In this document: positions 4,482 to 26,588 of the stretch, in pieces | How the letters are laid out: every line of letters starts with the position of its first letter | How positions within the stretch are numbered: the stretch's first letter is position 1 | DNA from: Bacteroidota bacterium | Lineage (GTDB): Bacteria; Bacteroidota; Bacteroidia; JABEUT01 | Assembly: GCA_013285805.1 (NCBI GenBank) | Contig: JABDGY010000013.1 | Coordinates: forward strand, 3,067 to 47,976 | Reading direction: 5' to 3' | DNA: 44,910 nucleotides | The notes under the pieces: model-generated | Seen by the model: the letters and a program-made list of their open reading frames with translations, nothing else | Told to the model about the DNA's origin: nothing | Database searches by the model: none | Made by a program: the position numbers and the translations under genes

Positions 4482-4670
4482 TGAATTAGAATTTAAGGTT
4501 TTACGTATCGGGGTCTTTTTCACAGACAAAATTGAAAAAAAAATGCATATAGGAGTGTATCCGGGCAAAATCTCTTTCAGTATGTTGGTTTTCAGTGGGA
4601 TGAAGTATTTGAAATGGTATTTGAATGATTTATCGTCTAATAGAATGTTGGGTATAAAGTGCTATTTTCC

Positions 4671-4678
4671 TATCTTTG
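4671..4678 (+). promoter_or_regulatory. -7 promoter box, 4 nt before a start codon
   Basis: TATCTTTG matches TAnnTTTG exactly and ends only 4 nt before the ATG at 4683, which implies a leaderless or nearly leaderless message. Confidence 0.6.
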
Positions 4679-4682
4679 GTAT

Positions 4683-5135
4683 ATGAAAAGAATGTATAAA
4701 ACGGGGTTAGTAATTGTGGCAATTGTTTGGCTAGGTTGCTTGTTTAGTTCATGCAGCAAAGGGGCCAACCCCGAAGGCAGCACTCCGGTACCGTATGTTA
4801 AGGTGAACGTGTCAATAAATATAAATAGTTCGCCTTACACAGGGCTGCAAACAATTGGTGGAGTGGCATATGCTACGGGAGGAAACCGTGGGATTGTTTT
4901 ATACAGGATTAATGCGACTACAATTACAGCCTTCGACCGAACCTGTACGTACGACCTGCCTGATAACGGTGGAATTGTTCAGGCTGAAAATAATGGTACA
5001 GCGGTTTGTATTGATTGTGGTTCAACCTATGGTTTGTCGAATGGTAATGTACTTAGCGGCCCATCAACCTTAGGTTTGCAGTTATATAACACTTCTTTTA
5101 ATTCTACTACAGGTAATTTGGTTATTACCAATTAA
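4683..5135 (+). CDS. Rieske-fold-like lipoprotein with altered cluster ligands
   Basis: The protein has 150 residues from the ATG at 4683. A frame extension from a GTG at 4659 would read through the promoter box, so I reject it. The signal peptide ends in a lipobox (LFSSC). The C-terminal two thirds resemble a Rieske domain: FDRTC, then about 30 residues on a CxxCGSTY block, then SNGNVLSGPS and a final beta strand ending in LVITN. In Rieske proteins the ligands are CxH and CxxH. Here the first is Cys-Thr-Tyr and the second Cys-Ile-Asp-Cys, so both His are gone and three Cys remain. Whether any metal is bound is unknown. Confidence 0.65.
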   Translation: MKRMYKTGLVIVAIVWLGCLFSSCSKGANPEGSTPVPYVKVNVSININSSPYTGLQTIGGVAYATGGNRGIVLYRINATTITAFDRTCTYDLPDNGGIVQAENNGTAVCIDCGSTYGLSNGNVLSGPSTLGLQLYNTSFNSTTGNLVITN

Positions 5136-5183
5136 TGGATTGTTCTAGTTAGCTATTGTAATAGTAGAGAAGTGAAAAATCTT

Positions 5184-6785: not shown

Positions 6786-6809
6786 GATTTTCCGGGAACT
6801 AAATAATCA

Positions 6810-7373
6810 TTACTGAACCTTAACCCCTTTCATGGTTTTTGTTTCAACTTTTGAATTATCAATAGCCGATTTCTTTACCATTAATCTTGCGCCTTCTCCG
6901 CCGGGTTGTATATAATAGGTTTCATTTTCATATTTAATGCGGCCTATTTTGCCATTTTCTTCGGCTATCCATTCGCTGGCAAATATGCGGTAAACTTCAT
7001 TGGGGGTTGTTACACCGGTAACGCCAAAGGTCAGTGTTTTGCCATCGCCCATTTCAAAACTTATTTCCAGCGAATTCTGGTGAATCTTCGAACATACGCC
7101 GGGGGTACCTTTTTTGAGCATTATTATATGAACGTACTTTCCGTTTACCAGTTTTATTTCTCCCGATGATACTTTTACATCAGCCGAAGAGACTTCCCTG
7201 CGCAATTCCACATCGCGGTCAACATAAAATTGCAGTTTGTTCAATGGAACAGAATCGGCTTCAACCCTTTTTCTTATATCGGTAGTAAAGAAAGACATAG
7301 AGGTGCAGGAAGTAGCACCCATTGCAAATACAATTGCAATTATTGCCAGTATATTCAGTTTGCTTTTAGTCAT
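6810..7373 (-). CDS. Lipoprotein of unknown function
   Basis: I choose the ATG at 7373 (MTKSKLNIL), because the longer frame would add ten residues before the signal peptide. The product has 187 residues with a lipobox at ATSC. The mature part looks like mostly beta structure (ELRREVSSADVKVSSGEIKLVNGKY and similar alternating patterns) with basic residues at the C-terminus. I do not recognise a family. It is the first gene of a likely two-gene unit with the sialidase-like T9SS protein, which suggests a cell-surface role. Confidence 0.7.
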   Translation of the reverse strand: MTKSKLNILAIIAIVFAMGATSCTSMSFFTTDIRKRVEADSVPLNKLQFYVDRDVELRREVSSADVKVSSGEIKLVNGKYVHIIMLKKGTPGVCSKIHQNSLEISFEMGDGKTLTFGVTGVTTPNEVYRIFASEWIAEENGKIGRIKYENETYYIQPGGEGARLMVKKSAIDNSKVETKTMKGVKVQ

Positions 7374-7529
7374 AATATTTGGTTCACTTTTAGTTAGACA
7401 CATTAAAATCCAAAAGGATTAATGATTCCGAGGATAAAGTTAAATATTTTTCTTCAGCTATGCTGTTAAAGGGATTGGCCCTGTTATCCTGCATTTATTT
7501 TCACAACCTGAATCACATATATAAAACCT

Positions 7530-7537
7530 TATATTTG
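7530..7537 (+). promoter_or_regulatory. -7 promoter box upstream of the glutamate synthase-like gene
   Basis: TATATTTG is an exact TAnnTTTG match 25 nt before the ATG at 7563. Confidence 0.6.
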
Positions 7538-7562
7538 CCAGTAAGCTTATATCTTAAATCCC

Positions 7563-9161
7563 ATGCGTAAAGTATTTATCAATTTTTCAATTATATGCCT
7601 TTTAACAATAGGCATAGTGTCATATTTCTGGCATCCATTTTTATGGAGCCTGGTTATAATGGGGCCTATAATACTTGTTGGCATTATGGATATGTTGCAG
7701 CCCGGCCATACCATTAAAAGGAACTTTCCTGTATTGGGAAGAATGCGTTACTGGATGGAAGCCCTTCGTCCGAAGATTTACCAGTATTTTATAGAATCGG
7801 ATACTGATGGCACACCCTTTAACCGCTTAAACCGCAGTGTTATATACCAGCGCGCTAAAAAAGTAAACGATACCACACCTTTTGGTACTCAACTGAATGT
7901 GTATGAAGTGGGATATGAGTGGCTTAATCATTCCATAACGCCGCTCGATTCGCATAAACTAAGCCACGACCCGCGCGTGCTTGTAGGCGGCCCCGATTGT
8001 AAACAACCCTACTTAGCCAGTATATACAACATCTCGGCCATGAGTTATGGTTCGCTTAGCCAGAATGCTATTATGGCCCTTAATTCGGGGGCTAAAATGG
8101 GTGGATTTGCACATAACACCGGCGAAGGTGGATTAAGTCCCTATCACCTTGCATCAGGAGGAGATATTATATGGCAGATAGGTACAGGTTATTTTGGTTG
8201 CCGTAATCAGGACGGAACCTTCAATTTCGATTTGTTCGCAGAGAGAGCAGTGTTGCCTAATGTGAAAATGATAGAGATAAAAATGTCGCAGGGTGCAAAG
8301 CCCGGGCATGGAGGCATATTACCTGCTGCAAAAGTAACTGATGAGATTGCAAAAATCCGCCTGGTGGAAAAGGGGAAAGATGTAATATCACCACCTTATC
8401 ATACTGCTTTCCGTACACCGGTTGAAATGCTTGAATTTATAAAGAAGCTTCGTGAACTTTCGGGTGGCAAGCCCATAGGGTTTAAGCTTTGTGTGGGTAT
8501 GAAGAGCCAGTTCCTTTCTATATGCAAGGCTATGGTAAAAACGGGTATTATGCCCGATTTTATTACGGTTGATGGTGGAGAAGGCGGAACAGGCGCTGCT
8601 CCGCTGGAGTTTTCAAATTCGGTAGGTATGCCATTGAGAGACGGCTTGGCTTTTGTGCATGATGCCTTAAATGGTTTTGCATTGAGAAGGCATATTCGCA
8701 TAATTGCTTCGGGCAAAGTGGCTACCGGATTTGATATAGTAAAACTTTTGGCCCTTGGAGCCGATATGTGTAACAGCGCACGTGCCATGATGCTGGCATT
8801 GGGCTGCATACAGGCATTGGAATGTAATACCAACAAATGCCCTACAGGTGTTGCTACACAGGATAAAAACCTGCAAAAAGGATTAGTGGTAGATGATAAG
8901 AAGACAAGGGTTTGTAATTTTCATAATGAAACGGTAAAAAGCGCGGTGGAACTTATGGGCGCGGCAGGAATTTCAGATACCAGTAAAATGCACCGTTCAT
9001 TTATATATCGCCGTGTTAATGCCGCGGAGATCAAGACATACGCAGAAACCTATCCTTACATTTTAAGAGGTTCCCTTATAGAGCCACCATATCCTGAGCA
9101 ATACCAGTTCGACCTATCTAATTGCAGCGAAGAGAGCTTTGAGCCTTTGATAAAAAGGTAG
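7563..9161 (+). CDS. Membrane-anchored FMN-binding glutamate synthase-like protein
   Basis: The protein has 532 residues. Two hydrophobic segments at the N-terminus (about 4-45) suggest a membrane anchor. The rest is the FMN-binding synthase domain of GltB as a stand-alone TIM barrel, with SYGSLSQNAIMALNSGAKMGG, GEGGLSPYHL, MSQGAKPGHGG, VDGGEGGTGAAP and a gating region near GVATQ. The [3Fe-4S] ligand pattern C-x5-C-x4-C is intact (Cys415, Cys421, Cys426). There is no amidotransferase domain or gltD nearby, so it is unlikely to act as a normal glutamate synthase. Such orphan proteins are common and their substrate is not known. It is a single gene between divergent and convergent neighbours. 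Confidence 0.88.
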   Translation: MRKVFINFSIICLLTIGIVSYFWHPFLWSLVIMGPIILVGIMDMLQPGHTIKRNFPVLGRMRYWMEALRPKIYQYFIESDTDGTPFNRLNRSVIYQRAKKVNDTTPFGTQLNVYEVGYEWLNHSITPLDSHKLSHDPRVLVGGPDCKQPYLASIYNISAMSYGSLSQNAIMALNSGAKMGGFAHNTGEGGLSPYHLASGGDIIWQIGTGYFGCRNQDGTFNFDLFAERAVLPNVKMIEIKMSQGAKPGHGGILPAAKVTDEIAKIRLVEKGKDVISPPYHTAFRTPVEMLEFIKKLRELSGGKPIGFKLCVGMKSQFLSICKAMVKTGIMPDFITVDGGEGGTGAAPLEFSNSVGMPLRDGLAFVHDALNGFALRRHIRIIASGKVATGFDIVKLLALGADMCNSARAMMLALGCIQALECNTNKCPTGVATQDKNLQKGLVVDDKKTRVCNFHNETVKSAVELMGAAGISDTSKMHRSFIYRRVNAAEIKTYAETYPYILRGSLIEPPYPEQYQFDLSNCSEESFEPLIKR

Positions 9162-9234
9162 AATTTCTTTCTGGCGGTTATTGAATAATAAGCTTTTTTA
9201 GTAATGTCTGAGTTTGTTCTCTTTTATGTATTTT

Positions 9235-9351
9235 GCCCCAAACCCCTAAAGGGGCTTTGAAATAAAACCGAGTCATGTTGAGCCTGTCGAAACATATTCA
9301 TTTGACACTTAGACAAGCTCAGTGTGACGGGCCCTTTTAGGGGTTTGGGGC
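9235..9351. repeat. Nested inverted-repeat element (copy 1)
   Basis: The outer arms at 9235-9255 and 9331-9351 pair over 20 of 21 bases (core GCCCCAAACCCCTAAA). Inside them lies a second, weaker inverted repeat: 9272-9295 (GTCATGTTGAGCCTGTCGAA) against 9305-9328. The outer arm recurs exactly at 36985. The element sits between a plus-strand gene end and a minus-strand gene end. Confidence 0.85.
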
Positions 9352-9370
9352 TGACAGGTTCAAAGAGGGA

Positions 9371-10330
9371 CTACTGAATAATAAGCTTTTTAACCGTATT
9401 GTTTTGTTCGTTGCTTATTTGTAGCAGGTAAGTTCCTTTTGCCAGGTTACTTATATTCATTGGTAAAGAATTCTTTCCTGTATATATATCTGTTTGTCCT
9501 CTATAGATTTCTCTACCGGTTATATCTGTCAACCTAACCACTGTATTTTTCGCATTTACAGTTGAATTAACAGACACAGTGAATACTCCATTATTGGGAT
9601 TAGGGAAAATGTCTACATCAGTTGAATTGTTTTGGTATTCATCAATACCTGCTGTAACATTAATGGAATCGATGTCATGAATGTTACGTGGCTCAATCCA
9701 GTTGGCATACTCAAAATGTATGCAACCTGTAATGTTGTACCGTTTACCCGGGGTGTACTTTTGCGGGGTATAAATTATGTTGTCAATGGTGTCCTCGCTG
9801 TTAATTGATTTGGTCATAGTAGAATCATAAAACACCCACCATACTGCACTAGCATTATATCGTAAACAAGTAGCGTCTTTAATTTTTACGAGCATACCCT
9901 GGTATTTTCTGCGTTGAATAGAATCTAAACCTACAACTGTAGCGGGAGTGCGCGCCTGGTTACCATGGCTTACTATAACGAAATTAGAGATAGAATCCAT
10001 TTCGGTTTCATTGTAATATTCTATTACCTGGCCGGTAAAAGTAACGCTGTCACCAACTGCAGGCTTATAGGTCTTATCGTATACATTTATTGCGGCCCAT
10101 TCGGTTGCGTAACTGGTTTGTACGTAGTAACCATAACCGAACGTACCCGTTATAATTCCCCCGGTATTTACATATTGGTTCATGTAGGGAGAATTGGGAA
10201 TAGCGCCAACAGAATCCACTGTGCTGTATTGTATGTTCCATAAGGTAACATTGGGGTAAGTGTAGAACTGGGCTTTTGCTCCGAAAGCTAAAAGCACTGT
10301 AAATATTACAATAGATAATTTTGTTTTCAT
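9371..10330 (-). CDS. T9SS-sorted protein with OB-fold-like region
   Basis: This 319-residue protein has a signal peptide (1-20, ending in GAKA). The middle (about 30-215) has two stretches of the type GDSVTFTGQVIEYY and KRYNITGCIHFEY, which resemble the OB-fold modules found in Bacteroidota exported proteins next to nuclease or lamin-tail domains. No catalytic domain is visible here. The C-terminal 80 residues (from DIFPNPNNGVFTV to KLIIQ) are a type A T9SS sorting domain. It is a single gene with a terminator-bearing gap upstream. Secretion is well supported; the molecular function is unknown. Confidence 0.8.
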   Translation of the reverse strand: MKTKLSIVIFTVLLAFGAKAQFYTYPNVTLWNIQYSTVDSVGAIPNSPYMNQYVNTGGIITGTFGYGYYVQTSYATEWAAINVYDKTYKPAVGDSVTFTGQVIEYYNETEMDSISNFVIVSHGNQARTPATVVGLDSIQRRKYQGMLVKIKDATCLRYNASAVWWVFYDSTMTKSINSEDTIDNIIYTPQKYTPGKRYNITGCIHFEYANWIEPRNIHDIDSINVTAGIDEYQNNSTDVDIFPNPNNGVFTVSVNSTVNAKNTVVRLTDITGREIYRGQTDIYTGKNSLPMNISNLAKGTYLLQISNEQNNTVKKLIIQ

Positions 10331-10515
10331 CTTTTTGTTTTTTTAATAATAATTTATTGAAGCCTTAAAGGGTAGCTTCATTCTTGAAGGTGATAAAAGT
10401 AAAATATTTTTCATGCCAGCATGTTAATGGGAGGTTAAATCAGTTAAGAAAGGAAGATTAGGTGTTGAAACAAAAGCTGTTGCTTAATCAAACCAACCTG
10501 AATCCAAGAGTAAAG

Positions 10516-10547
10516 AAAACACCTTCCATTAATGGAAGGTGTTTTTA
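10516..10547 (-). terminator. Terminator of the beta-barrel gene
   Basis: A perfect palindromic stem, AACACCTTCCATT with its complement (10518-10543), is flanked by A and T runs and lies about 45 nt past the stop codon at 10590. Confidence 0.8.
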
Positions 10548-10589
10548 TACGGCTGATTTAGCTTCAAAAATAAAACTCAATTTTATGCT

Positions 10590-11225
10590 TTAATCTCCAA
10601 AACAAAGAGCAAGACTAAAAATCAGCTCATTCGGTGTTGAGAATGTTGTAGTAGTGCTATTATCGGGTTTGTTAGTGAGCCCCTGGTAAGCCAGCCCCAG
10701 GTTTATTACGCCTAATTCTACATTAGCGCCTACACGATAGCCTAAACCCGATGGATTCGTTGTTATTGAATTATCGTTATTGAAGTTGGCCGTGTAAATC
10801 CAATTATAAACCGGGCCTGCTTCTATACGGATAGGGCCAAGAATTTTTAATCCCAATAGAACCGGAACTTCTACATTTCCATAATCAAACCTGGAAGTAT
10901 TAAATTGGCCATCATTATAATAATAGGTGGCCGTTCCGCCCTCGTAACCTAACAATAGCATAGGCTTTATAAAAAAAGGACCCATGTTAACCCGTTCAAA
11001 TAAACCACCTTCAAATCCCATAATATTATTTCCTTTAATGGTGTTTGTAAACGAGTTGCCTATGTTTGATAAATTAACAGATGACGTGGATGCTCCGAAT
11101 GTTACGCCCGTGGTAAAAGTCTGGGCATTCTCTCCTTTCGGAAGAAAAACCAGTAGTGACACTGCCAGAAGAACTAATGATTTAACCCGAAAGGCCATCC
11201 TGGAAATTTTCATTGGTGTTTTCAT
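10590..11225 (-). CDS. Outer-membrane beta-barrel protein (PorT-like family)
   Basis: The protein has 211 residues and an N-terminal signal peptide (about 1-34, ending in ENAQ). The rest alternates Gly and aromatic residues in strands such as MLLLGYEGGTATYYYNDG, DYGNVEVPVLLGLKI and IRIEAGPVYNWIYTANF, ending in LIFSLALCFGD. This is the pattern of the 8-stranded PorT or outer-membrane beta-barrel family common in Bacteroidota. It is a single gene with its own terminator. An exact minus-strand box TAGCTTTG lies at 11297-11290, about 65 nt upstream. Confidence 0.75.
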   Translation of the reverse strand: MKTPMKISRMAFRVKSLVLLAVSLLVFLPKGENAQTFTTGVTFGASTSSVNLSNIGNSFTNTIKGNNIMGFEGGLFERVNMGPFFIKPMLLLGYEGGTATYYYNDGQFNTSRFDYGNVEVPVLLGLKILGPIRIEAGPVYNWIYTANFNNDNSITTNPSGLGYRVGANVELGVINLGLAYQGLTNKPDNSTTTTFSTPNELIFSLALCFGD

Positions 11226-12306: not shown

Positions 12307-15300
12307 TTATTTATTTATAAGCAATTGAGCCTCTTTCAGGGAAATCTTTTTACCATTATGATAAGCCACCACAAAGCAATCGGGGAAGCCATCGGTTGCC
12401 AGTTCGTCTTTAAACGCATCGGCTGAAGCATAGTTATCATATTCACCTACCGTATAGCTGGTAATGCCATTATCTTCCTTATGCGGGTGAATGCCCTGGC
12501 TTGCAATTTTAATAAGGTTATTAGCCACATCAAGCGGTATCTGGCCTGAATAGGCGCCTACCTGTACCGAGAAGGTTACTTTACCATGTGCTGTATCAGC
12601 CGGAGTAACAGTTGGTGGCGCATTATTTATAGGTTGGCCTGTCCCTATGGGAGTTACAGGCGTATTTGTTGGTTGGGTTACCGGTTGGGTAGTTGCAGAT
12701 GTATTGTTTGCTCCTGCAGGCGTTGCATCCAGCCCCGGATTAGTGGGAGTGCTTGCTTTTCCGCTGCTTAATAATTCGGCTGCCTGCGGTAATCCAATCC
12801 GGTCGCCGTTGTAATAGGCTACCACAAATGCGTCTTTTATAGGTGTGCGTGACACAATAGCGTCTTTTGCCGCGCTGGCCTTAGGTACAGTACTGTATAT
12901 TCCGCAATTGTAACGTATATATCCATTGGGCGCTTTATAAGAGAATAGGGGTTGCAGGTTATATAATTTGTCTGCCGTTACCGGTTTAAGGAAAGCGCCT
13001 ACCTGCACGGTGAAGAACAAACCTTTAACATCAGTCACCGGTGTTGAAGCTACAGGAGCAGTGGTATTTGTTGAAGGTTGTGTTTCAGGTTGAGTTGTAT
13101 TGTTAACCGGTGGCTGAGTATTTGTTGCGGGGTTATTGGTAGCAATAGGTTGGGTAGTTGCAGCCTGGTTCAATGGTACGCGTTTGCCATTCAGGAATGC
13201 TACAATAAAGGCATCCTTATATCCCAATCCCTGAACTTTAGTAAGAGCATCTTTTGCTTTATCAAGCTCTTTAAAAATACCTGCCGTATAACGCGTAAAG
13301 CCCTGGGTAGTAGTTTCACCGGCTATAGGTTCTAACCCTTTAAATGCAGTTTGTTTTATAGGGTTTCTGAATGCGCCAATCTGTACTTTATATACTAACC
13401 CTTCAGGTAATGGAGGGTTAATAGGTATGGGGTGAGCATTTGAATATGGCGATGCAGGTAATTCCCTTATTACATCAATTGTTTCTGAAGCCGTGGCTGT
13501 ATTTGCCGGGTTATTGGTAGTCGCAACAGGATTACTTGGCTGAGTAGTTGGGTTGCTCGGCTGTGTAGTAGTCGGATTATTATTAGGTTGTGTTTCCGGA
13601 TTATTTGTAGTCGCAACAGGGTTACTTGGCTGAGTAGTCGGGTTGCTCGGCTGTGTAGTAGTTGGATTATTGTTAGGTTGTGTTGCCGGGTTATTCGTCG
13701 TTACAGGGTTACTTGGCTGAGTGGTTGGGTTGCTCGGCTGTGTAGTAGTTGGATTATTGTTAGGTTGTGTTTCCGGGTTGTTAGTCGTTACAGGATTGCT
13801 TGGTTGAGTGGTCGGGTTGCTAGGTTGGGTAGTAGTCGGATTATTATTGGGTTGTGTTTCCGGGTTATTTGTCGTTACCGGATTGCTTGGTTGAGTGGTA
13901 GGGTTACTCGGTTGCGTTGTAGTCGGATTATTGTTAGGCTGTGTTTCCGGGTTATTTGTCGTTACAGGATTACTAGGCTGAGTAGTTGGGTTGTTCGGTT
14001 GTGTAGTAGTCGGGTTATTATTGGGTTGTGTCTCCGGGTTATTAGTGGTAGCAACAGGATTAGTTTCAGGTGTAACATTTTTTAGGTCGGGGTTAACCTG
14101 CAGAAAAATATTCTGGGCTTTTTGTTGTTTGTCAAGCGCAATTTCCAGGTAGTGTTTCGAATTATCAAGGTACATCTGCTTAAGGTAAGGCACTGTAGTG
14201 TTGTCAGCCTTTTGTTTTTCTTTAGCCGATTCATCATAATTGCCTTGTGCGTCCTGCATTAGCAAGTCAGCAGTAATAATCTTATCTGAACTGTTAGTTT
14301 GTTCGGCATTCTTCCATGCTTGCAATTGCTGCTGGTTATTCAGGTACTGTGCACCATTGGCATCGTTAGTATAAGTTGTGGCTATCAGCTTTTGTTCTGC
14401 TGCAGCGTCATCAAGCGAATCGGCCTTGCGGTTGAGAGCCTTAGCCTGTTCAGGGTCTGTGGTATGATGTGCCAGGTCGCGTGCTTCTTCCGCCTGGTTA
14501 CTTAATTGATTGGCCTCATTGGTATAGGTGTTGGCAACCTTGTGAGACTGTGCCGCAGGGCCATTGGTATAATTTACAGTAACAGGTACAGGGTTTGTGG
14601 GCTCATTATTTACCGGATAGCTGTCGGGTTGTGTCTCCGGATTGCTCGGTTGAGTTGTGGTAGGATTATTGTTAGGTTGAGTTTCCGGGTTATTGGTTGC
14701 TACAGGGTTACTGGGCTGAGTTGTAGTTGGGTTATTATTGGGTTGTGTTTCCGGGTTATTAGTCGTTACAGGGTCAGTAGGCTGAGTTGTAGTTGGGTTA
14801 GTAGGCTGAGTTGTAGTTGGGTTATTATTAGGTTGCGTTTCCGGATTATTGATCGTTACCGGATTACTAGGTTGAGTAGTCGGGTTGTTCGGCTGAGTTG
14901 TAGTTGGGTTATTATTAGGTTGTGTCTCTGGATTATTAGTCGTTATAGGATTACTTGGCTGAGTAGTAGTCGGATTATTATTGGGCTGCGTTTCCGGGTT
15001 ATTTGTTGTTACCGGGTTACTAGGTTGAGTAGTTGGGTTGTTCGGTTGAGTAGTAGTCGGATTATTATTAGGTTGTGTTACTGGATTGTTATTAATAGCA
15101 ACAGGATTGCTTGGCTGAGTAGTTGGGTTGCTCGGTTGTGTAGTAGTCGGATTATTGTTAGGTTGCGTTTCGGGGTTATTTGTCGTTACAGGATTACTTG
15201 GTTGAGTCGTTGGATTGGTGGGCTGTGTAGTAGTTGGGTTATTATTAGGTTGTGTCTCTGGATTATTAGTCGTTACAGGATTACTTGGCTGAGTAGTAGT

Positions 15301-18282
15301 CGGATTATTATTGGGCTGCGTTTCCGGGTTATTTGTTGTTACCGGATTACTAGGTTGAGTGGTAGGGTTGCTTGGCTGTGTAGTAGTTGGGTTATTGTTG
15401 GGTTGTGTCTCTGGATTATTTGTCGTTACGGGGTTACTAGGTTGAGTGGTAGGGTTGCTTGGCTGAGTGGTAGTTGGATTATTGTTGGGTTGGGTTTCCG
15501 GGTTGTTGGTCGTTACGGGATTGTTTGGTTGTGTAGTTGGGTTACTGGGCTGAGTAGTATTCGGATTATTAGTTGCTACGGGGTTACTAGGCTGAGTAGT
15601 CGGGTTGCTTGGCTGAGTAGTCGTGGGATTATTGTTGGGCTGTGTTTCCGGGTTATTAGTCGTTACCGGATTACTAGGCTGCGTGGTAGGATTGCTTGGC
15701 TGTGTATTAGTCTGGTTATTATTTACAACAACGGGTGGAGTAAAATTCTTTATATCTTTTTTCAAATCTGCTGAATCGGTAGAAGCAAGAGGTGTAGAAG
15801 GTGAGTTTTTAGAAATACTGTCAACACTATGAGCCTGTGCCATCAGGTTGTTATATTCATCATGCAGTTGTACAAGTGTTTTCTGGTTTTCCTGTATCTC
15901 GTTTTCTTTTTCTTTTTTACTATTGGCCAAATCTCTTGCCTGTTCAAGCATTGCCACTTTTTCATTCGGGTTATCTGTTTTCTGCGCCTGGCTCACATAG
16001 TCATCCGATTCCTGCTGCAGGCGGTTAGCTTCTTTCTGCAGGTCAGAGTCATGCTTTACAACTTCAACAGAATCTTGTTTTAAGTCTCTTGCCTGGGTGC
16101 GTACAAGGTCTCCTGCTGATGGAGCAGGAGGAGGATTGCTCTCGGTTTGCTTGTCGAGGCTATCGCGCTGGGCCTGCAATTTTTTAATAGCCTTTGCTTT
16201 ATCCGGCGATTTAAGCGCTGAATCGAGCCTTGCCGAATATTGAGTGGCTTCATCGGCTTCTTTCTGTTTTACCATGGCCTGGCTTTCCATCTGCGATGCA
16301 AGCTGGAATGCTTCTATCGCTTTCTTACCCGCATCTTTTGAATTTTCCGATAATGCAGTTGCCTTATCAAGGCTGTCTTGTTTTTCTTCAGGGTTAGTAA
16401 TGTTATTGGCATGTTCTTTTATTTCCTGGGCTTCCCTGTCCAGCTCTTGGGAATGGTTCAACTCACTGGAAGCGTATTCAATGGCTTTGCCCGCATCGTC
16501 TTTAGCATTTTGTGCGGCCTCCTGTTGTTCTTTAGCATCGTTACGGGCAATTTTAACCAGGTCTTTACTGCTTACGCCTTTACCGCCTGTGGTATCAATA
16601 CGTACCTCATTCGTATCGCCTGTTCCCGTATCAGGAGGGTTGTTCGGTTGGGTTGAAGGGTTATTAGGTTGCGTTTCCGGGTTATTAGTTGCAACAGGAT
16701 TAGTAGGTTGGGTTGTGGGATTGTTGTTTGGTTGAGTTTCCGGATTATTAGGTTGAGTTGTTGGATTGTTTGGCTGTGTAGTTGGATTATTAGTTGTAGG
16801 AGGTGTATAAACTTTTATAGGCTTGGTTGTGTCAACATTCACTTCCATCTGGGCCTTTTGCTGAATAACATTCAAAGCCAACAGGTAGTTAGAGTCGCTA
16901 ACCGCACCCTGTACAGAATTGGTTATAATAAGTTTGTCAGTTGAGGGTTCATAGGTTATCTGCTGACCAATAGGGGTTAAACTATTTTGAGTAGGTATGG
17001 TAATCGATTCCGATTGTGTTTGATGATTGTTGGTTTCTACCGTAAAAACAAAATGTCCGCCATTAACAAGGTTCATAATGTAGCTGCCGCTATCGGCAGT
17101 TGAATTGAAAACACCAATTGTTTCACCCGATTGAAAGTCTTTTACAGTAATACGCGAGGCCGTAAGCGTTTTCCCATTGTCGCCATACGTTCTTCCTGTA
17201 ATCATAATATTTTCAGGCGGGTGGGGCTGTACATTTATTCTATAAACAGCTATACGCCCGTCGGGTGAAGAGCGGGTAGAGGAGAAAAAGGCTGTCTGGC
17301 CAAGGGTGTCTGCAATAAATAAAATATCGTCCCCGGGCGTATTAATAGGGAAGTCCATATTCACCGGCTGCGACCATGCCCCGGTGGCATCATTATAAAT
17401 CGATTTAAAAATGTCATATCCACCCATACTATTGTGCCCCATGGAAGAGAAGTAGAGAGTGTGTGTGGGTTCATCATAAAACGGATAATCTTCATCGTAA
17501 GGCGTATTAATTACTCCACCAAGGTTTGACGGTTTTCCCCATCCGCCGGTAGGCAATTTATACGCCACGTAAATGTCTTTGCCATTTTTATCGTCATCGC
17601 CATAACTTGAAAAGAAAAGTTTGCTCCTGTCTGGGGAAAGGTAGATGATAGAAGTAAGGTTTTTCTTCTTGTCTGTTTTCGTTTTAAAGTCATCGGGTTC
17701 CACTAGTAATGTTCCGCCATTTGAAGTAAGATCATAAGCCTGGTAATAATTGTCCCTGCTCAGTTCTTTCTTTCTTAATACATCAAGGTCGTGCAGATTA
17801 CTCAGTAACTGCTTGCCATTGTTACACATTTCTATAAGATGGTCTACCGGGTGCTTTTTAAGGTCAGACGAAGAGGCATTTTGCCTGAAATGGTTGTATG
17901 CCCGTATAGCATCATCGAAACGATAATTAAGGTGGTAGGCCCTGCCCAGGTAATAATATGCCAGGTTTTCTACAGCAGGAAGTTTTACCGCATTTTCAAT
18001 ATAATCAATTGGCTTTTTCTTATCAGCCTGGGAAAATAACATACAGGCGCCAAACCGGTAATTGTAATTCGGGTCATCCTGGTGAAGGCTTAATAATTGA
18101 GAATATTCATTAAACGCATTGGTATAGTCCTCATCCTCAAAATATTGGTTGGCTTGTTTTTTTAGCTGAGCTTCATTAGCCGGGCTTTTTTGCGCGGCAA
18201 CCTTGTCACTGATTACCAGTGATAAAGCCAGAAATGTAAGTATTACGGTTTGCCGTAGGTTTATCGGGATACTATATTTCAT
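12307..18282 (-). CDS. Giant PorE-like TPR/PD40 protein with repeat linkers and three SPOR domains
   Basis: The protein has 1991 residues from the ATG at 18282 (a GTG seven codons upstream is less likely). Order, with rough residues: signal peptide 1-31; TPR-like helices 35-165; PD40 propeller strands 190-350 (LSPDRSKLFFSSYGDDDKNG, HTLYFSSMGHNSMGGYDIF); a carboxypeptidase-regulatory-like beta domain 360-430; short Asn/Pro/Gln repeats 495-550; long coiled-coil-like helix 560-845; array of 12 units about 850-1220; helix 1230-1395; array of 6 units about 1400-1600; SPOR domains at about 1627-1704, 1754-1837 and 1900-1990. SPOR domains bind peptidoglycan stripped of stem peptides, often at division sites. 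TPR plus PD40 resembles PorE of the T9SS, but the usual OmpA domain is missing. It probably works as an envelope tether or scaffold. Confidence 0.85.
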   Translation of the reverse strand: MKYSIPINLRQTVILTFLALSLVISDKVAAQKSPANEAQLKKQANQYFEDEDYTNAFNEYSQLLSLHQDDPNYNYRFGACMLFSQADKKKPIDYIENAVKLPAVENLAYYYLGRAYHLNYRFDDAIRAYNHFRQNASSSDLKKHPVDHLIEMCNNGKQLLSNLHDLDVLRKKELSRDNYYQAYDLTSNGGTLLVEPDDFKTKTDKKKNLTSIIYLSPDRSKLFFSSYGDDDKNGKDIYVAYKLPTGGWGKPSNLGGVINTPYDEDYPFYDEPTHTLYFSSMGHNSMGGYDIFKSIYNDATGAWSQPVNMDFPINTPGDDILFIADTLGQTAFFSSTRSSPDGRIAVYRINVQPHPPENIMITGRTYGDNGKTLTASRITVKDFQSGETIGVFNSTADSGSYIMNLVNGGHFVFTVETNNHQTQSESITIPTQNSLTPIGQQITYEPSTDKLIITNSVQGAVSDSNYLLALNVIQQKAQMEVNVDTTKPIKVYTPPTTNNPTTQPNNPTTQPNNPETQPNNNPTTQPTNPVATNNPETQPNNPSTQPNNPPDTGTGDTNEVRIDTTGGKGVSSKDLVKIARNDAKEQQEAAQNAKDDAGKAIEYASSELNHSQELDREAQEIKEHANNITNPEEKQDSLDKATALSENSKDAGKKAIEAFQLASQMESQAMVKQKEADEATQYSARLDSALKSPDKAKAIKKLQAQRDSLDKQTESNPPPAPSAGDLVRTQARDLKQDSVEVVKHDSDLQKEANRLQQESDDYVSQAQKTDNPNEKVAMLEQARDLANSKKEKENEIQENQKTLVQLHDEYNNLMAQAHSVDSISKNSPSTPLASTDSADLKKDIKNFTPPVVVNNNQTNTQPSNPTTQPSNPVTTNNPETQPNNNPTTTQPSNPTTQPSNPVATNNPNTTQPSNPTTQPNNPVTTNNPETQPNNNPTTTQPSNPTTQPSNPVTTNNPETQPNNNPTTTQPSNPTTQPSNPVTTNNPETQPNNNPTTTQPSNPVTTNNPETQPNNNPTTTQPTNPTTQPSNPVTTNNPETQPNNNPTTTQPSNPTTQPSNPVAINNNPVTQPNNNPTTTQPNNPTTQPSNPVTTNNPETQPNNNPTTTQPSNPITTNNPETQPNNNPTTTQPNNPTTQPSNPVTINNPETQPNNNPTTTQPTNPTTTQPTDPVTTNNPETQPNNNPTTTQPSNPVATNNPETQPNNNPTTTQPSNPETQPDSYPVNNEPTNPVPVTVNYTNGPAAQSHKVANTYTNEANQLSNQAEEARDLAHHTTDPEQAKALNRKADSLDDAAAEQKLIATTYTNDANGAQYLNNQQQLQAWKNAEQTNSSDKIITADLLMQDAQGNYDESAKEKQKADNTTVPYLKQMYLDNSKHYLEIALDKQQKAQNIFLQVNPDLKNVTPETNPVATTNNPETQPNNNPTTTQPNNPTTQPSNPVTTNNPETQPNNNPTTTQPSNPTTQPSNPVTTNNPETQPNNNPTTTQPSNPTTQPSNPVTTNNPETQPNNNPTTTQPSNPTTQPSNPVTTNNPATQPNNNPTTTQPSNPTTQPSNPVATTNNPETQPNNNPTTTQPSNPTTQPSNPVATTNNPANTATASETIDVIRELPASPYSNAHPIPINPPLPEGLVYKVQIGAFRNPIKQTAFKGLEPIAGETTTQGFTRYTAGIFKELDKAKDALTKVQGLGYKDAFIVAFLNGKRVPLNQAATTQPIATNNPATNTQPPVNNTTQPETQPSTNTTAPVASTPVTDVKGLFFTVQVGAFLKPVTADKLYNLQPLFSYKAPNGYIRYNCGIYSTVPKASAAKDAIVSRTPIKDAFVVAYYNGDRIGLPQAAELLSSGKASTPTNPGLDATPAGANNTSATTQPVTQPTNTPVTPIGTGQPINNAPPTVTPADTAHGKVTFSVQVGAYSGQIPLDVANNLIKIASQGIHPHKEDNGITSYTVGEYDNYASADAFKDELATDGFPDCFVVAYHNGKKISLKEAQLLINK
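13490..14075. repeat. Coding tandem repeat, 6 units of about 87 bp
   Basis: On the minus strand the units encode a 29-residue block with the core QPNNNPTTTQP followed by SNPTTQPSNPVTTNNPET. Third-base differences between units and occasional residue changes (PATQP for PETQP) show that the units are not freshly copied. Confidence 0.9.
14625..15725. repeat. Coding tandem repeat, 12 core units
   Basis: This is the same unit as the 13490-14075 array, with some units shortened (one or two of the NPTTQPS blocks missing). Because the repeat lacks stop codons in other frames, a 422-residue shadow frame appears on the plus strand. It is not a gene. Confidence 0.9.
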
Positions 18283-18340
18283 AGCCAGCTGCTTCCGGGG
18301 CACAAGTAAACTTTAATGCGGTTAATTTTAGCTAAAACAG

Positions 18341-22330: not shown

Positions 22331-22404
22331 ATATTACGGTAACGGATAAGGGTAACAAAAATGATAAAAACTTTGGTCTCTTAACACTATTTAACGAAGT
22401 TTAT

Positions 22405-22412
22405 TACTTTTG
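22405..22412 (+). promoter_or_regulatory. -7 promoter box of the B12 operon
   Basis: TACTTTTG is an exact consensus box placed about 6 nt before the first base of the riboswitch, so transcription would start with the aptamer. Confidence 0.7.
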
Positions 22413-22417
22413 CGTCG

Positions 22418-22600
22418 TAATGGTTTCCGATGTGTACGCAAGTGCAATAGGAATGAAAAGGGAACCGGGTGTAAGTCCCGGACAGTTCCCGCTGCTGTGA
22501 GCTCTTAAAAAGAGTTTTTGAATTCTACAGCCACTGTTAAGGCGCAACGCCGAGACGGGAAGGCTTCAAAAACGGAGTAAGTCAGAAGACCTGCCAATAC
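22418..22600 (+). promoter_or_regulatory. Cobalamin (B12) riboswitch
   Basis: The aptamer shows the family's conserved blocks: the leading GGTTTCCGATGTG, the central GGGTGTAAGTCCCGGACAG and CCCGCTGCTGTGAG elements, and the B12 box GTCAGAAGACCTGCC near the 3' end. The segment between 22601 and the receptor gene can form additional stems (for instance GAGGAA at 22641 with TTCCTC at 22664), so control could act at either termination or translation. When cobalamin binds, expression of the downstream uptake genes should fall. Confidence 0.95.
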
Positions 22601-22736
22601 AAAAGAAAATTAATAATTCAACGCTTTCGGGTAAAAAGCGAGGAATAGAAGACTATAAATAAGTTCCTCTATTCATTCAACTATCCGTTAAGCGTGTTAA
22701 AACAAACAAATGTTTAACACCTTAAAACAAATTTCA

Positions 22737-24920
22737 ATGAAAAAAAGAGCAGCACTCTTATGGTGCATTGGCATTGCTACTCTTGCGCATGCCCAGAATT
22801 CACAACCTGACAGCCTAACACACTTGCAGGATTCACTCAGGTCGGTAACGGTTACAGCCACACGCACAAATAAAGATGTTATGGATGTGGGCCGCAGCGT
22901 AAGCGTTATTTCAGCAGAACAGATTAAGCAGGCCAATTGCGGTTCGGTAGCTGAGCTTCTTTCGGAACAGGAAGGCATTTTTATAGTGGGTACTGATCAG
23001 AACCCTGGCGCTATACAAAGCCTGTTTATGCGTGGAGCCGATAATAATAATACCACTATTATGATTGACGGTGTTCCTGTTACTGATCCGTCTACTGACC
23101 ATAGTGAAATAGACCTTAATGAATTATCGCTGGCGGATGTAGACAAGATAGAGATTGTAAGAGGTTCACAAGGAACACTTTATGGGTCTTCGTCAATAGG
23201 AGGTGTTATAAATATTATTACCAAAAAGAGGTATACACCCGGGTTGCACATAACCGCTTCGGTTATGGGTGGAGAATTTGGCCCCGGAGGAGTAATTGGC
23301 GATGGCAACATACTAGCCAATTATACTTTTAAGAATGGGTTTTATGTGACAGGTGGGATACACTATGAAGCCACTAAAGGATTGAACGCGACTGTAGATA
23401 CTTTAACTCATCCTAAACACTGGCAATTACCCGATAGCGATAACTATAATAAGATTGAAAAGTTCGCCAAGGTGGGTTTCGTAAATGGTAAGTGGGATAT
23501 ATTTGCCGAATACAGGAATATCATTCAGAACTCTGATGCTGATGGATCGGCCTTTGTGAACCTTGATAGCGCTAAGGACCATTTTGTGCGCGACTCTTAT
23601 CTTGGCGGTATAACTTACAAGGTATCATCAAACTTTAACCTACAGTATACCGGTGGTTATTCACACGATTTCAGGTTGTACACGCAGGGCAGAGATACTA
23701 TTGACGGCTTTGGCGATGTTTCGAAACAGAATGACTTATACATAGGTTCGCGTTTGTACCAGGATATTAAAGCCGAATACAATTATAAAAACTCTCATTT
23801 TATAATTGGTTTCAATTATACAATGGAATCTACGGATGTCATGTCAAATGACTCATCTATAAGTAGTTCATTTGGCAATGCGCTATACCAATCCTCACTC
23901 GATAGTGTTAAGCCCAAACAATCGAACACTGCCGTATATGCACAAGCCGATTTAAACGGAGGGCTTTTCTGGTCGAAACTCGATTCCCTTTCTCTGTTAC
24001 TCGGCGGGCGCTATACCAATAACTCAGTTTATGGAGGTAATTTCAGTTACGATATAAACCCTTATTACCGCGTTAACAGGAATACAATGCTTTACTTGTC
24101 ATATTCCACAGGTTTTACTACTCCTTCTTTATACCAGTTATATGCCCCTAATAAAGATGGTGACTTTCCATCAACATCGTTTACCCTTGGTAATTCAAAA
24201 CTGACTGCGGAAACATCGAACTCAATTGAAATTGGAGTAAAACACAAGGTGTCCGACAAACTTTACTTTACCCTGGCATGGTTTAAGACAGTGGTAAATA
24301 ATTATATCGATTACGTGTACCTGTGGCAGAAAAATGTGCCTACTGATTCACTTGGTTACGGAGATTTTCTTGGCGACAGGTATCTGAATGTCGGGCAGCA
24401 AACTACACAAGGTTTTGAACTGAATATTTTTGCGAAACTATCGAAGAAGCTAGATATGTCGGGCAATATAAGCCTGCTATCGAGCAAGCTGGAATACTCA
24501 AGCAGTACAGTAGATACTATCCAGACACATGGCGCGCAGGTGCAGATATTTGATGGAGGAGGGTTCCTCAATGGTACAAACCTCAGCAATACCAATGGTC
24601 TGTTACGTAGGCCAGGCTCGCTGGGCAATTTTTCAATTACCTATCGCCCGGTAAAGAAACTATCGCTTATGCTCAGGGCAAGGTATGTAGGTTCACGTTA
24701 CGATGCAGAATATGTTTCAACACTAGGTCCTTACGGAGCCGATGGTTTTGTGAACATAGGCGACTATACCCTTGTCGATGCTTTTGCTTCGTATGATATT
24801 ACAAAGAACCTCTTCGCTATGCTTAGGGTAGAGAATGTTTTTAACACTACTTACTACGAAATACAGGGTTATACCACTGTCGGCAGGGCAATTTATCTTA
24901 ATATCAGGTATAGTTTCTAA
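22737..24920 (+). CDS. btuB: TonB-dependent vitamin B12 receptor, BtuB-like
   Basis: I use the ATG at 22737, which begins a clean signal peptide (MKKRAALLWCIGIATLAHAQ); an in-frame ATG at 22710 would add nine residues before it. The product has 727 residues. The plug domain (about 35-150) has a Ton-box-like SVTVTATR followed by IDGVPVTDPS and VRGSQGTLYGSSSIGGVINI. The barrel follows and ends in an aromatic residue (IYLNIRYSF), as needed for outer-membrane insertion. Its place behind a cobalamin riboswitch makes B12 or another corrinoid the likely ligand. Confidence 0.93.
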   Translation: MKKRAALLWCIGIATLAHAQNSQPDSLTHLQDSLRSVTVTATRTNKDVMDVGRSVSVISAEQIKQANCGSVAELLSEQEGIFIVGTDQNPGAIQSLFMRGADNNNTTIMIDGVPVTDPSTDHSEIDLNELSLADVDKIEIVRGSQGTLYGSSSIGGVINIITKKRYTPGLHITASVMGGEFGPGGVIGDGNILANYTFKNGFYVTGGIHYEATKGLNATVDTLTHPKHWQLPDSDNYNKIEKFAKVGFVNGKWDIFAEYRNIIQNSDADGSAFVNLDSAKDHFVRDSYLGGITYKVSSNFNLQYTGGYSHDFRLYTQGRDTIDGFGDVSKQNDLYIGSRLYQDIKAEYNYKNSHFIIGFNYTMESTDVMSNDSSISSSFGNALYQSSLDSVKPKQSNTAVYAQADLNGGLFWSKLDSLSLLLGGRYTNNSVYGGNFSYDINPYYRVNRNTMLYLSYSTGFTTPSLYQLYAPNKDGDFPSTSFTLGNSKLTAETSNSIEIGVKHKVSDKLYFTLAWFKTVVNNYIDYVYLWQKNVPTDSLGYGDFLGDRYLNVGQQTTQGFELNIFAKLSKKLDMSGNISLLSSKLEYSSSTVDTIQTHGAQVQIFDGGGFLNGTNLSNTNGLLRRPGSLGNFSITYRPVKKLSLMLRARYVGSRYDAEYVSTLGPYGADGFVNIGDYTLVDAFASYDITKNLFAMLRVENVFNTTYYEIQGYTTVGRAIYLNIRYSF

Positions 24921-24955: not shown

Positions 24956-25510
24956 ATGAAGACAATAATGAAGCCAAGAACAGGAGTATTAGCAATAATG
25001 ATTTTACTTGCCGGAGTATGGAGACTTGCCCTTTCGGGAATACCGGCTCTTGCCGATTTCACTCCCATAGGCGCTATGGCAATTTTCGGTGGCTGCTATT
25101 ATTCTGATAAGTGGAAGGCATACCTTGTGCCCCTTTTAACTCTTTGGCTTACCGATATGATATTAAACGCTTTTATGTACCATCACCCTGCTGTATTTTA
25201 TAGCGGCTTTTACTGGACCTATGGCAGTTTTGCCCTTATGGTACTTGTAGGCTCGTTTATTAAGAAGGTAAATGCCGGAAACTTTATACTGGCATCTATT
25301 GTTTCAGCTTTGCTACACTACATTATAACCGATTTCGGAACATGGGTGGGAGATGGTATATACCCGCATACACAGGCTGGCTTTATTGCCTGCTACGTAG
25401 CTGCCCTGCCATTCCTGAAAAGCTTGCTCATAGGCAACCTTGTTTTCGGTGGCGCTATGTTCGGGGCTTTTGAATGGGCTCAAAGGAAGTACACCGTATT
25501 AGCTGTATAA
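24956..25510 (+). CDS. DUF6580-like multispan membrane protein, putative B12-linked transporter
   Basis: The protein has 184 residues and about five hydrophobic segments. It begins with a short basic stretch and carries the motifs ADFTPIGAMAIFGGCYYSD and LLTLWLTDMILNA, which fit the DUF6580 family of putative transport proteins. It is similar in size to ECF-type substrate-binding S components, but I see no ECF ATPase or T component here. Its position between the BtuB-like receptor and the BtuF-like gene, under the cobalamin riboswitch, suggests a role in moving B12 or a precursor across the inner membrane. That role is inference. Confidence 0.75.
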   Translation: MKTIMKPRTGVLAIMILLAGVWRLALSGIPALADFTPIGAMAIFGGCYYSDKWKAYLVPLLTLWLTDMILNAFMYHHPAVFYSGFYWTYGSFALMVLVGSFIKKVNAGNFILASIVSALLHYIITDFGTWVGDGIYPHTQAGFIACYVAALPFLKSLLIGNLVFGGAMFGAFEWAQRKYTVLAV

Positions 25511-25514
25511 CACA

Positions 25515-26588
25515 ATGGCTTTAAAGGCCTGCTCTTTTCTACCTGCTGCTACAAGCATGATTCAGCAGATGGGGCTTGATGAGTTTTTGTGCGGGGTAAC
25601 TTTCGAATGCCATAGCGATAAGCCCAAGGTGGTACGCTCATATATTGAGGGCAACAACTACACAAGCCTCGAGATTGAAAAGATTGTTTCGGAATCGAAG
25701 CAAATGGGCAAGAGCCTCTATTATATAGATGAGGAACTACTGCAACAGATTGCACCCGATGTTATTTTTACCCAGGATGTATGCGATGTTTGCCAGATTG
25801 GCACCAGTTTTGCGGAAAGGGCAATTCATAAATTAAAGAAGCAACCGCTTGTTATACCGCTTACACCACGTAGCCTTAACGATGTGTACGATAACGCCAT
25901 TACCATAGCCAAAGCATTGGGTAAGGAAGAAGCTGCCTATAAAGTTTTGGCGGTCCTTAAAAAGAGAACTGATTCGATTCTTGATACGCTGAGAAAAAAT
26001 AATGCTCCCTTGAAGCGTGTAATGGTAATGGAGTGGATAGAGCCTATTTATAATTGCGGGCACTGGATTCCTTATCAAATATCACAGGCTGGTGGGGTAG
26101 ATATGCTCTCGAACCCGGGCGGGTATTCCATTATAACGCCTTGGGAAAGGGTAAGGCAGTATAACCCTGAGGTGCTTGTTGTTGCTCCATGTGGTTTCGA
26201 TATTCACCGCGCGGCAAAGGAAATAGATAAGCTGCAGCAATTGGATGGATGGAACGATATCGCGGCTGTAAAAAACTTTGCTGTTTATTTCGCCGATGCC
26301 GACTTGTTTACCTGCCCCAGCCTGCATTTAGTTGACGGAATAGAATTGTTGGCTTATATGTTTCACCCTACTATATTTCCCCCACAGGAAAAATTCAGGG
26401 ATAAGTGTAAACAACTTTATACGGGCAAGAACTGTTCAAAGTGCGGAACGGGTTTTACATGCAGTTCTGCCAATTGCTGGTGTAGCGATATGCCCAATGT
26501 TATGCCCATGAACCCTGAAGAGGGTTGCCTTTGCCCTGATTGCCTGAAAAAAGCGATTGAATTGAAAGTCGTTAGTCATAAGGGGTAA
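25515..26588 (+). CDS. Signal-less BtuF-like cobalamin-binding protein fused to a Cys-rich CWC domain
   Basis: The protein has 357 residues and starts 4 nt after the preceding gene. The periplasmic-binding-protein fold (PF01497 type) begins at residue 3 (KACSFLPAATSMIQQMG), so there is no signal peptide or lipobox and the protein should be cytoplasmic. A CDVC motif near residue 93 is typical of signal-less members of the family. The last 50 residues contain eight Cys in the order CxxC-x5-C-x4-CxC, then CxCxxC, which fits the Cys-rich CWC family and could bind zinc or iron-sulfur. The binding domain retains loops such as WIEPIYNCGHWIP and APCGFDIHRA. A role as an intracellular corrinoid carrier is possible but not shown. 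Confidence 0.8.
   Translation: MALKACSFLPAATSMIQQMGLDEFLCGVTFECHSDKPKVVRSYIEGNNYTSLEIEKIVSESKQMGKSLYYIDEELLQQIAPDVIFTQDVCDVCQIGTSFAERAIHKLKKQPLVIPLTPRSLNDVYDNAITIAKALGKEEAAYKVLAVLKKRTDSILDTLRKNNAPLKRVMVMEWIEPIYNCGHWIPYQISQAGGVDMLSNPGGYSIITPWERVRQYNPEVLVVAPCGFDIHRAAKEIDKLQQLDGWNDIAAVKNFAVYFADADLFTCPSLHLVDGIELLAYMFHPTIFPPQEKFRDKCKQLYTGKNCSKCGTGFTCSSANCWCSDMPNVMPMNPEEGCLCPDCLKKAIELKVVSHKG

Follow-up and report, generated by a model that had tools for sequence, protein, structure and literature searches.

The window, i.e. the whole stretch of 44,910 nucleotides analysed here (a Bacteroidota bacterium, contig JABDGY010000013.1), contains a cobalamin riboswitch followed by three genes, the last of which codes for a BtuF-fold protein fused to a CWC-like domain. 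We use BtuFc as our own name for the apparently cytosolic BtuF-fold family to which the first part of this protein belongs. The features that matter here are, in window coordinates:

22404..22612, plus strand: cobalamin riboswitch RF00174 (cmscan, 100.5 bits, full model 1-189)
22710..24920, plus strand: BtuB-like TonB-dependent receptor, 736 aa (Pfam barrel 142.4 bits, plug 86.5 bits)
24956..25510, plus strand: DUF6580 membrane protein, 184 aa (PF20221, 183.1 bits)
25515..26588, plus strand: BtuFc-CWC fusion protein (ORF, 357 aa), the main finding
25521..26399, plus strand: BtuF-fold (class III substrate-binding protein) part, residues 3-295 (Foldseek and profile search)
25608..25610, plus strand: invariant C32, following predicted strand 25-29
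25782..25793, plus strand: invariant pair C90-D-V-C93, following predicted strand 83-87
26190..26192, plus strand: invariant C226, following predicted strand 220-223
26433..26543, plus strand: CWC-like domain with eight Cys, residues 307-343 (cysteine pattern; stand-alone CWC beside unfused BtuFc)

The order riboswitch-BtuB-DUF6580-BtuFc, all on the plus strand, agrees with the operon proposed in the first-pass annotation, with BtuB and DUF6580 lying directly 5' of the fusion gene. The ADP-heptose epimerase gene downstream is, as far as can be told, unrelated to BtuFc-CWC. For the window BtuB the best NCBIfam match is TIGR01779 (TonB-B12), at 187.7 bits and under the cut-off of 599.7 for that model. 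DUF6580 is presumed to be an inner-membrane corrinoid transporter; since a profile of 26 DUF6580 sequences gave no match in the PDB at E-values up to 10, this role is deduced from gene context. Elsewhere in the window (12307-18303, minus strand), a 1998-aa protein contains many mid-protein repeats of the type NNPETQPNNNPTTTQPSNPTTQPSNPV, and the length of this tract may vary between strains.

Pfam assigns the binding domain of the fusion protein to PF01497 (60.3 bits against a curated cut-off of 27.5, residues 72-263). PF14375 (CWC) is placed on residues 307-345 with 14 bits and does not reach its curated cut-off of 24, but the tail has all eight cysteines of the pattern (307, 310, 316, 321, 323, 338, 340 and 343), which bears out the earlier reading of a CWC-type domain. 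At E-values up to 1, the Pfam scan returned only these two families and PF13942, with no MMACHC family among them. No second copy of BtuFc-CWC was found in the window's own genome, which is 60% complete.

The frame of the fusion gene is closed by a stop codon five codons before the ATG, leaving no room for a missed signal sequence upstream. Among 80 BtuFc proteins, the most hydrophobic 14-residue stretch of the N-terminal 35 residues reaches 1.63 on the Kyte-Doolittle measure; for six lipoprotein BtuF proteins of relatives, the N-terminal 45 residues give 1.99-3.04. By this hydrophobicity measure, none of the 80 BtuFc proteins has a stretch resembling an export signal or lipobox. The initial observation that the substrate-binding fold begins at residue 3 without a signal peptide is confirmed.

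The structure of the window protein was modelled with AlphaFold2 together with 59 relatives (pLDDT 84.6, pTM 0.81; a single-sequence model reached a pLDDT of 36.4). The CWC part is poorly modelled, with block means of 37-75. Foldseek matches the model to class III binding proteins, with 4n01 as the best hit (E = 5.3e-15), and detects the BtuF proteins of Vibrio cholerae (5ysc; E = 4.1e-14, TM-score by target 0.74) and Escherichia coli (1n2z; E = 5.0e-11). By sequence profile search, the nearest solved protein is again V. cholerae BtuF (5ysc, E = 3.3e-18).

To see how widely these features are shared, we collected homologs in two ways. Among 247 genomes of the phylum, 72 contain matches to the window protein at E-values up to 1e-5; some of these cover the CWC tail alone or are weak partial matches to the binding domain, and full-length BtuFc was counted by eye at 41 places (E up to 2.8e-30). 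A scan of named genomes yielded 363 relatives, the best 80 of which were examined as close loci. The latter sample is heavy in Pedobacter, so counts of close loci do not represent independent events.

Nineteen positions are identical in all 40 sequences of an alignment comprising the window protein and 39 homologs: T13, L25, G27, C32, P81, T86, Q87, C90, V92, C93, P118, E173, W174, P177, W184, P186, C226, G227 and F265. A 34-sequence BtuFc alignment returns the same set, in which the E-W/P/W/P residues are invariant alongside four cysteines (C32, C90, C93 and C226). All four are conserved in 80 of 80 sequences (the window protein and 79 of the best 80 of the 363 relatives, excluding L165, which has no start in its contig) and in all seven plasmid-borne homologs (two from Thermus and one each from Qipengyuania, Haloferax, Cyanobacterium, Alicyclobacillus and Embleya). 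Post-strand loops of this kind face the cleft between the lobes in the class III binding-protein fold. Going by predicted secondary structure, the four cysteines should therefore line the cleft, with a probable split of three to one between the lobes. Judging from the homologs detected, the BtuFc family is widespread and present in both Bacteria and Archaea (one archaeon sampled); the search patterns used found no viral relatives. The first-pass annotation had singled out the absent signal peptide and the CDVC motif, which corresponds to C90-C93. Both are indeed present, but they recur family-wide and are not oddities of the window protein. In public records, members appear under the names 'cobalamin-binding protein' and '(Fe3+-hydroxamate) ABC transporter substrate-binding protein'. 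The missing signal sequence and the separate BtuF of several relatives cast doubt on the importer label.

BtuFc is not the binding protein of an ABC importer. At five Flavobacterium loci (L145, L150, L153, L154 and L156) and one Aquibacillus locus (L157), genes labelled by clustering as a binding protein and two ABC-transporter components are divergent from BtuFc. Pfam confirmed a second PF01497 protein at L145, L150, L157, L160 and L212, and FecCD at L150 and L157, where the separate BtuF is present. The BtuF proteins of L145, L150, L156, L157, L160 and L212 all have lipoprotein-like starts according to a script, and their sole cysteine is the one in the lipobox region. FecCD matches occur in 6 of 15 genomes carrying BtuFc. 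Four of the eight BtuFc genomes that are at least 90% complete (G138, G080, G007 and G069) have no FecCD permease by a search that was positive in 13 of 14 control genomes; none was found in the window's own genome either, a weak result given its 60% completeness. In two carriers of the fusion, G255 and G249, the FecCD gene is part of a different cluster that includes a binding protein (PF01497, 98.1 bits in G255). As BtuFc fails both tested features of BtuF, namely the export signal and work with BtuCD, we do not file it as BtuF. For the window's clade a cytosolic location, the reading adopted at first sight, is well supported; that several relatives encode a second, lipoprotein BtuF close by adds to this.

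Next we considered the genomic context. Within 7 kb of BtuFc, 69 of the 80 close loci (best 80 of 363) have at least one B12-type marker, defined as CobU, CobS, CobT, CbiA, DUF6580, BtuB or a DUF71-type PP-loop gene; the remaining 11 have none. The most frequent are DUF6580 (54 loci), the PP-loop gene (54) and BtuB (53), followed by CobT and CobU (28 each), CobS (27) and CbiA (4). BtuB, DUF6580 and the PP-loop gene are softer markers than the Cob enzymes; with the strictest set (CobU, CobS, CobT and CbiA) the count is 33 of 80. CWC, fused cases included, is found within the same distance at 29 of these 80 loci. An ORF-based count found B12 neighbours at 64 of 74 loci, with six loci unscored. 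Representative neighbours checked with Pfam were CobU, BluB-CobT, CobS, a phosphatase, a CbiA-type protein and PF01902, the last label being confirmed in three examples. The clusters of relatives hold genes for corrinoid uptake as well as for the lower ligand. The PF01902 PP-loop ATPases in B12 clusters are of two kinds, starting like LWTGGKDCNLALY or with WSGGKDS, which may act on different substrates (L137:1472-2161, L146:7284-7973, and L142:7309-7986 and 9655-10365; L142 has both kinds). A Sir2-like gene, labelled from its sequence start, lies near BtuFc at 28 of 74 scored loci (L168-L216, mostly Pedobacter, e.g. L191:8955-9635).

Cobalamin riboswitches are present at eight of nine further loci of the window's clade. 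In six of these, the riboswitch precedes BtuB on the BtuFc strand; at L150 the BtuB that it precedes is located downstream, and at L157 it precedes the BtuF genes and lies on the other strand. The contig of L137 begins inside BtuB. No riboswitch above threshold was found at L101 (G359) or at the Nitrosomonas locus L149. Among the six annotated plasmid homologs, three are adjoined by ribonucleoside-diphosphate reductase genes. On the Alicyclobacillus plasmid, a riboswitch of 100.8 bits is followed by nrdA-nrdB-BtuFc on the same strand. On the two Thermus plasmids, the reductase genes are divergent from BtuFc, and the weaker riboswitches in between (35.4 and 33.6 bits) share the reductase strand, opposite to BtuFc. 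The riboswitch-bearing loci indicate that in several lineages BtuFc accompanies genes that serve when B12 is short. At the three plasmid loci (L130, L131 and L135), reductase genes, cobalamin riboswitch and BtuFc occur together, as if B12-free back-up enzymes and BtuFc travelled as a set.

Of 15 BtuFc genomes, 14 encode PduO (PF01923), the exception being a genome that is 65% complete, and we therefore rejected BtuFc as the missing adenosyltransferase; BtuR (PF02572) was found in none of the 15. A role in storing excess B12 seems unlikely, as expression under a cobalamin riboswitch would be turned off when B12 is plentiful.

The second part of the window protein leads to a partner that is more often encoded separately. 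Each of 18 aligned CWC sequences (18 of 18) has all eight cysteines, following the pattern C..C, C, C.C, C.C..C. With PF14375, the stand-alone relative of G084 scores above the cut-off (26.7 bits), and those of L187 (19.9) and L101 (18.2) below it; the CWC of L141 is not among the matches at E-values up to 0.1. The window tail is matched by the stand-alone CWC of G359 with a BLAST E-value of 1.8e-15. An HMM of the other CWC subtype gives the window domain 10.7 bits compared with 10.6 for the best of 998 shuffles; being no better than shuffles, it leaves kinship to that subtype to the cysteine pattern and intermediates. Comparison of the six fused genes suggests that the CWC part is under purifying selection (pN/pS of 0.215 compared with 0.126 for the BtuF part, synonymous sites being near saturation). 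Stand-alone CWC proteins with a C-terminal DUF5522 (71-72 bits) are encoded at L187:8939-9316 and L141:7983-8345.

The fusion was searched for beyond the window. It does exist in other genomes, but as far as examined it is peculiar to the window's genus, where it occurs in 6 of 11 genomes (G000, G249, G250, G253, G254 and G255), several of the 11 being 52-86% complete. In the same genus, G252 has an unfused BtuFc, G247 a CWC gene alone and three genomes no match. Four of 79 named BtuFc proteins are fused, and by contig they belong to four of the same six genomes. Between BtuB and BtuFc-CWC or CWC, two genomes of the genus (G253 and G247) have an ABC-F-like gene with two ABC_tran stretches and a C-terminal domain (L099:8616-10505 and L106:6494-8383). 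Outside the genus, CWC is a separate gene, often next to BtuFc and frequently overlapping it. At nine of 17 measurable loci, CWC is in frame +1 and its start overlaps the BtuFc stop by 8-20 bases, and at one locus the overlap is a single base; these values are upper bounds because the CWC start was taken as the first start codon of its frame. It follows BtuFc after 2-15 bases in five cases and after 63 bases in one, and at L141 it lies 6 bases before BtuFc. A contig of G359 (L152) carries BtuB, DUF6580, BtuFc, an overlapping CWC, CobU, BluB-CobT and CobS in this order, likely the state before fusion. Phylogenetic analysis placed five of the six fused proteins in one well-supported clade (99/99), with the sixth branching nearby. 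All six are together in only 4% of bootstrap trees; on these sequences, a single origin of the fusion would be compatible with the supported branches. Nitrosomonas and Bacillota BtuFc sequences are placed among those of Bacteroidota, suggesting that the BtuFc gene moves between phyla.

CWC is not confined to B12 clusters. In several genomes, it neighbours a gene for an FGGY-type kinase, and no B12 gene is apparent (e.g. L125). A PF14375 scan matched 68 of 247 genomes, most of them from one family (f18), whose CWC genes were seen mostly in non-B12 settings of this kind. At L108, L109 and L118, CWC accompanies MetE (confirmed by Pfam) or BtuB behind cobalamin riboswitches, and BtuFc is absent. 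The L108 cluster (4306-10986, minus strand) has CWC between MetE and a release-factor-like baeRF gene, and then BtuB and the BtuR adenosyltransferase, all on one strand with one cobalamin riboswitch in front.

The picture changes at larger evolutionary distances. We examined 25 loci with distant BtuFc members from inside the phylum (29-36% identity), which retain the cysteines. A strong B12-type neighbour is present at three of them: DUF6580 at L268, DUF6580 and a BtuB-like match at L271, and a PP-loop gene at L274. Besides these, there are remote BtuB-like matches about 3.5 kb away at L262, L267 and L269 (31-32%) and weak ones at L039 and L050 (E of about 6e-6). Of 24 scanned distant loci, one (L271) has a riboswitch. 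No consistent partner gene recurs at 31 distant loci, five of which have no central ORF. In the phylum sample, DUF6580 adjoins BtuFc at 10 of the 41 full-length places, as counted by eye, including four remote ones of 28-31% identity (G211, G195, G147 and G199). Since distant members are mostly without B12 neighbours, the core activity of BtuFc may be wider than B12.

Taken together, the riboswitch and the neighbours at 69 of the 80 close loci support well the B12-salvage part of the initial proposal, and for the window's clade a cytosolic role of BtuFc in B12 salvage is in our view very probable. That BtuFc binds a corrinoid is likely. Our preferred reading goes further: BtuFc would handle corrinoids in the cytosol, its cysteines acting on the cobalt or on the upper ligand and CWC serving as a partner; we tentatively give this reading a probability of about 0.45. 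Under this reading, scarcity of B12 would lead the riboswitch to release the cluster. BtuB would carry the corrinoid over the outer membrane, and DUF6580, or BtuCDF in other species, would presumably carry it over the inner one. In the cytosol, the BtuF-fold domain would take up the corrinoid and the four invariant cysteines could engage the cobalt, the likeliest modes being thiolate ligation or a reduction that strips the upper ligand. The PduO adenosyltransferase and CobU/CobT/CobS could then receive the corrinoid. As a partner, CWC, which is a domain of the same protein here and the product of a neighbouring gene elsewhere, may supply thiols, metal or electrons. A broader version, which seems to us somewhat unlikely, takes BtuFc to be an ancient cytosolic family of Bacteria and Archaea whose binding-protein fold became an enzyme. 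In this version, imported corrinoids would lose their upper ligand at a thiolate or Fe-S site formed by the cleft cysteines, with CWC, fused in the window's genus, acting as redox or metal partner, and BtuFc would be a bacterial equivalent of the unrelated CblC. Weighing against the preferred reading are the distant members mostly without B12 neighbours, the 11 unmarked close loci and the modest share of full-length places (10 of 41) adjoined by DUF6580, and the four cysteines could instead hold a metal or an Fe-S cluster.

It might be argued that BtuFc is a carrier only, binding B12 or cobinamide after import and passing it on without chemistry, the cysteines serving binding or stability. The evidence from B12 gene clusters applies equally to this possibility, the fold is that of a binding protein, and production when B12 is scarce, as implied by riboswitch control, fits a scavenging carrier. 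However, the four cysteines are retained without exception in both close and plasmid-borne homologs, and plain binding seems not to need them, as the six lipoprotein BtuF proteins have no cysteine outside the lipobox. We therefore regard a pure carrier as unlikely. Another possibility is a cytosolic protein in which the four cysteines hold a metal or an Fe-S cluster, with a non-corrinoid ligand, and which was recruited to B12 clusters for a redox or metal step. It would be in line with the four invariant cysteines, probably distributed three and one between the lobes, with the distant members mostly outside B12 loci and with the reductase genes beside three of six annotated plasmid homologs. 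Yet those reductase loci themselves have cobalamin riboswitches (strong in Alicyclobacillus, weaker in Thermus), and the nearest solved relative by sequence is the B12-binding BtuF, making this option quite improbable. Finally, the grouping of BtuFc with periplasmic binding proteins in Pfam and by fold might suggest an ordinary periplasmic BtuF of a BtuCD importer whose signal sequence had been missed, but we rejected this as extremely improbable in view of the closed frame and the separate BtuF genes near BtuFc in other species, along with N-terminal hydrophobicity below that of the BtuF lipoproteins in all 80 proteins and the four near-complete BtuFc genomes without FecCD permease.

Binding-protein folds are regarded as parts that work outside the cell. 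To our knowledge, little has been described of how bacteria process imported cobalamin on its way from the inner membrane to the adenosyltransferase. With its missing signal sequences, four invariant cysteines, B12-controlled clusters and coupling to a cysteine-rich partner gene, the BtuFc family offers a concrete candidate for this processing, and hosts that can be cultured, among them Pedobacter and Flavobacterium, make it tractable. Our literature search, which mostly did not extend to subscription papers, found no paper on the BtuFc family, a cytosolic BtuF-type protein or the CWC fusion, nor on DUF6580 or DUF5522. The consulted parts of PMC5481537, PMC10878165, PMC9600662 and PMC3541065 describe no cytosolic BtuF-type protein.

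Among known systems, BtuF (PDB 5ysc, 1n2z) is the most similar to BtuFc: the fold is alike, it is the closest solved sequence, the B12 gene context is shared and the GHW motif of V. cholerae BtuF aligns with BtuFc. The differences are the absence of a signal peptide or lipobox, the four invariant cysteines and, in several species, the coexistence with a lipoprotein BtuF, to which the window protein adds the CWC tail of its genus. The upper ligand of imported cobalamin is processed by MMACHC/CblC and by BtuM, a solitary cobalamin transporter and membrane protein in which decyanation is carried out by a cysteine. BtuFc may be functionally analogous to MMACHC/CblC but by Pfam is not its homolog. 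A BtuFc cysteine as cobalt ligand would be an analogy to BtuM, with no homology claimed. The DUF71-B12 PP-loop protein is an unrelated neighbour of BtuFc and no homolog. For the DUF71-B12/COG2102 PP-loop proteins, a role in B12 salvage has been predicted from gene clustering (de Crecy-Lagard and others, PMC3541065), and in the consulted part of that paper BtuF is named solely as a transporter subunit. PF14375 CWC proteins share the eight-cysteine pattern with the window tail and its stand-alone relatives. One CWC protein of the Sulfurospirillum cobamide cluster, SMUL_1567, is placed between CbiA and precorrin-2 dehydrogenase by a table in PMC7755780. Going by that table entry, the likeness is one of corrinoid gene context, and the CWC of the window is distinct in being fused to BtuFc.
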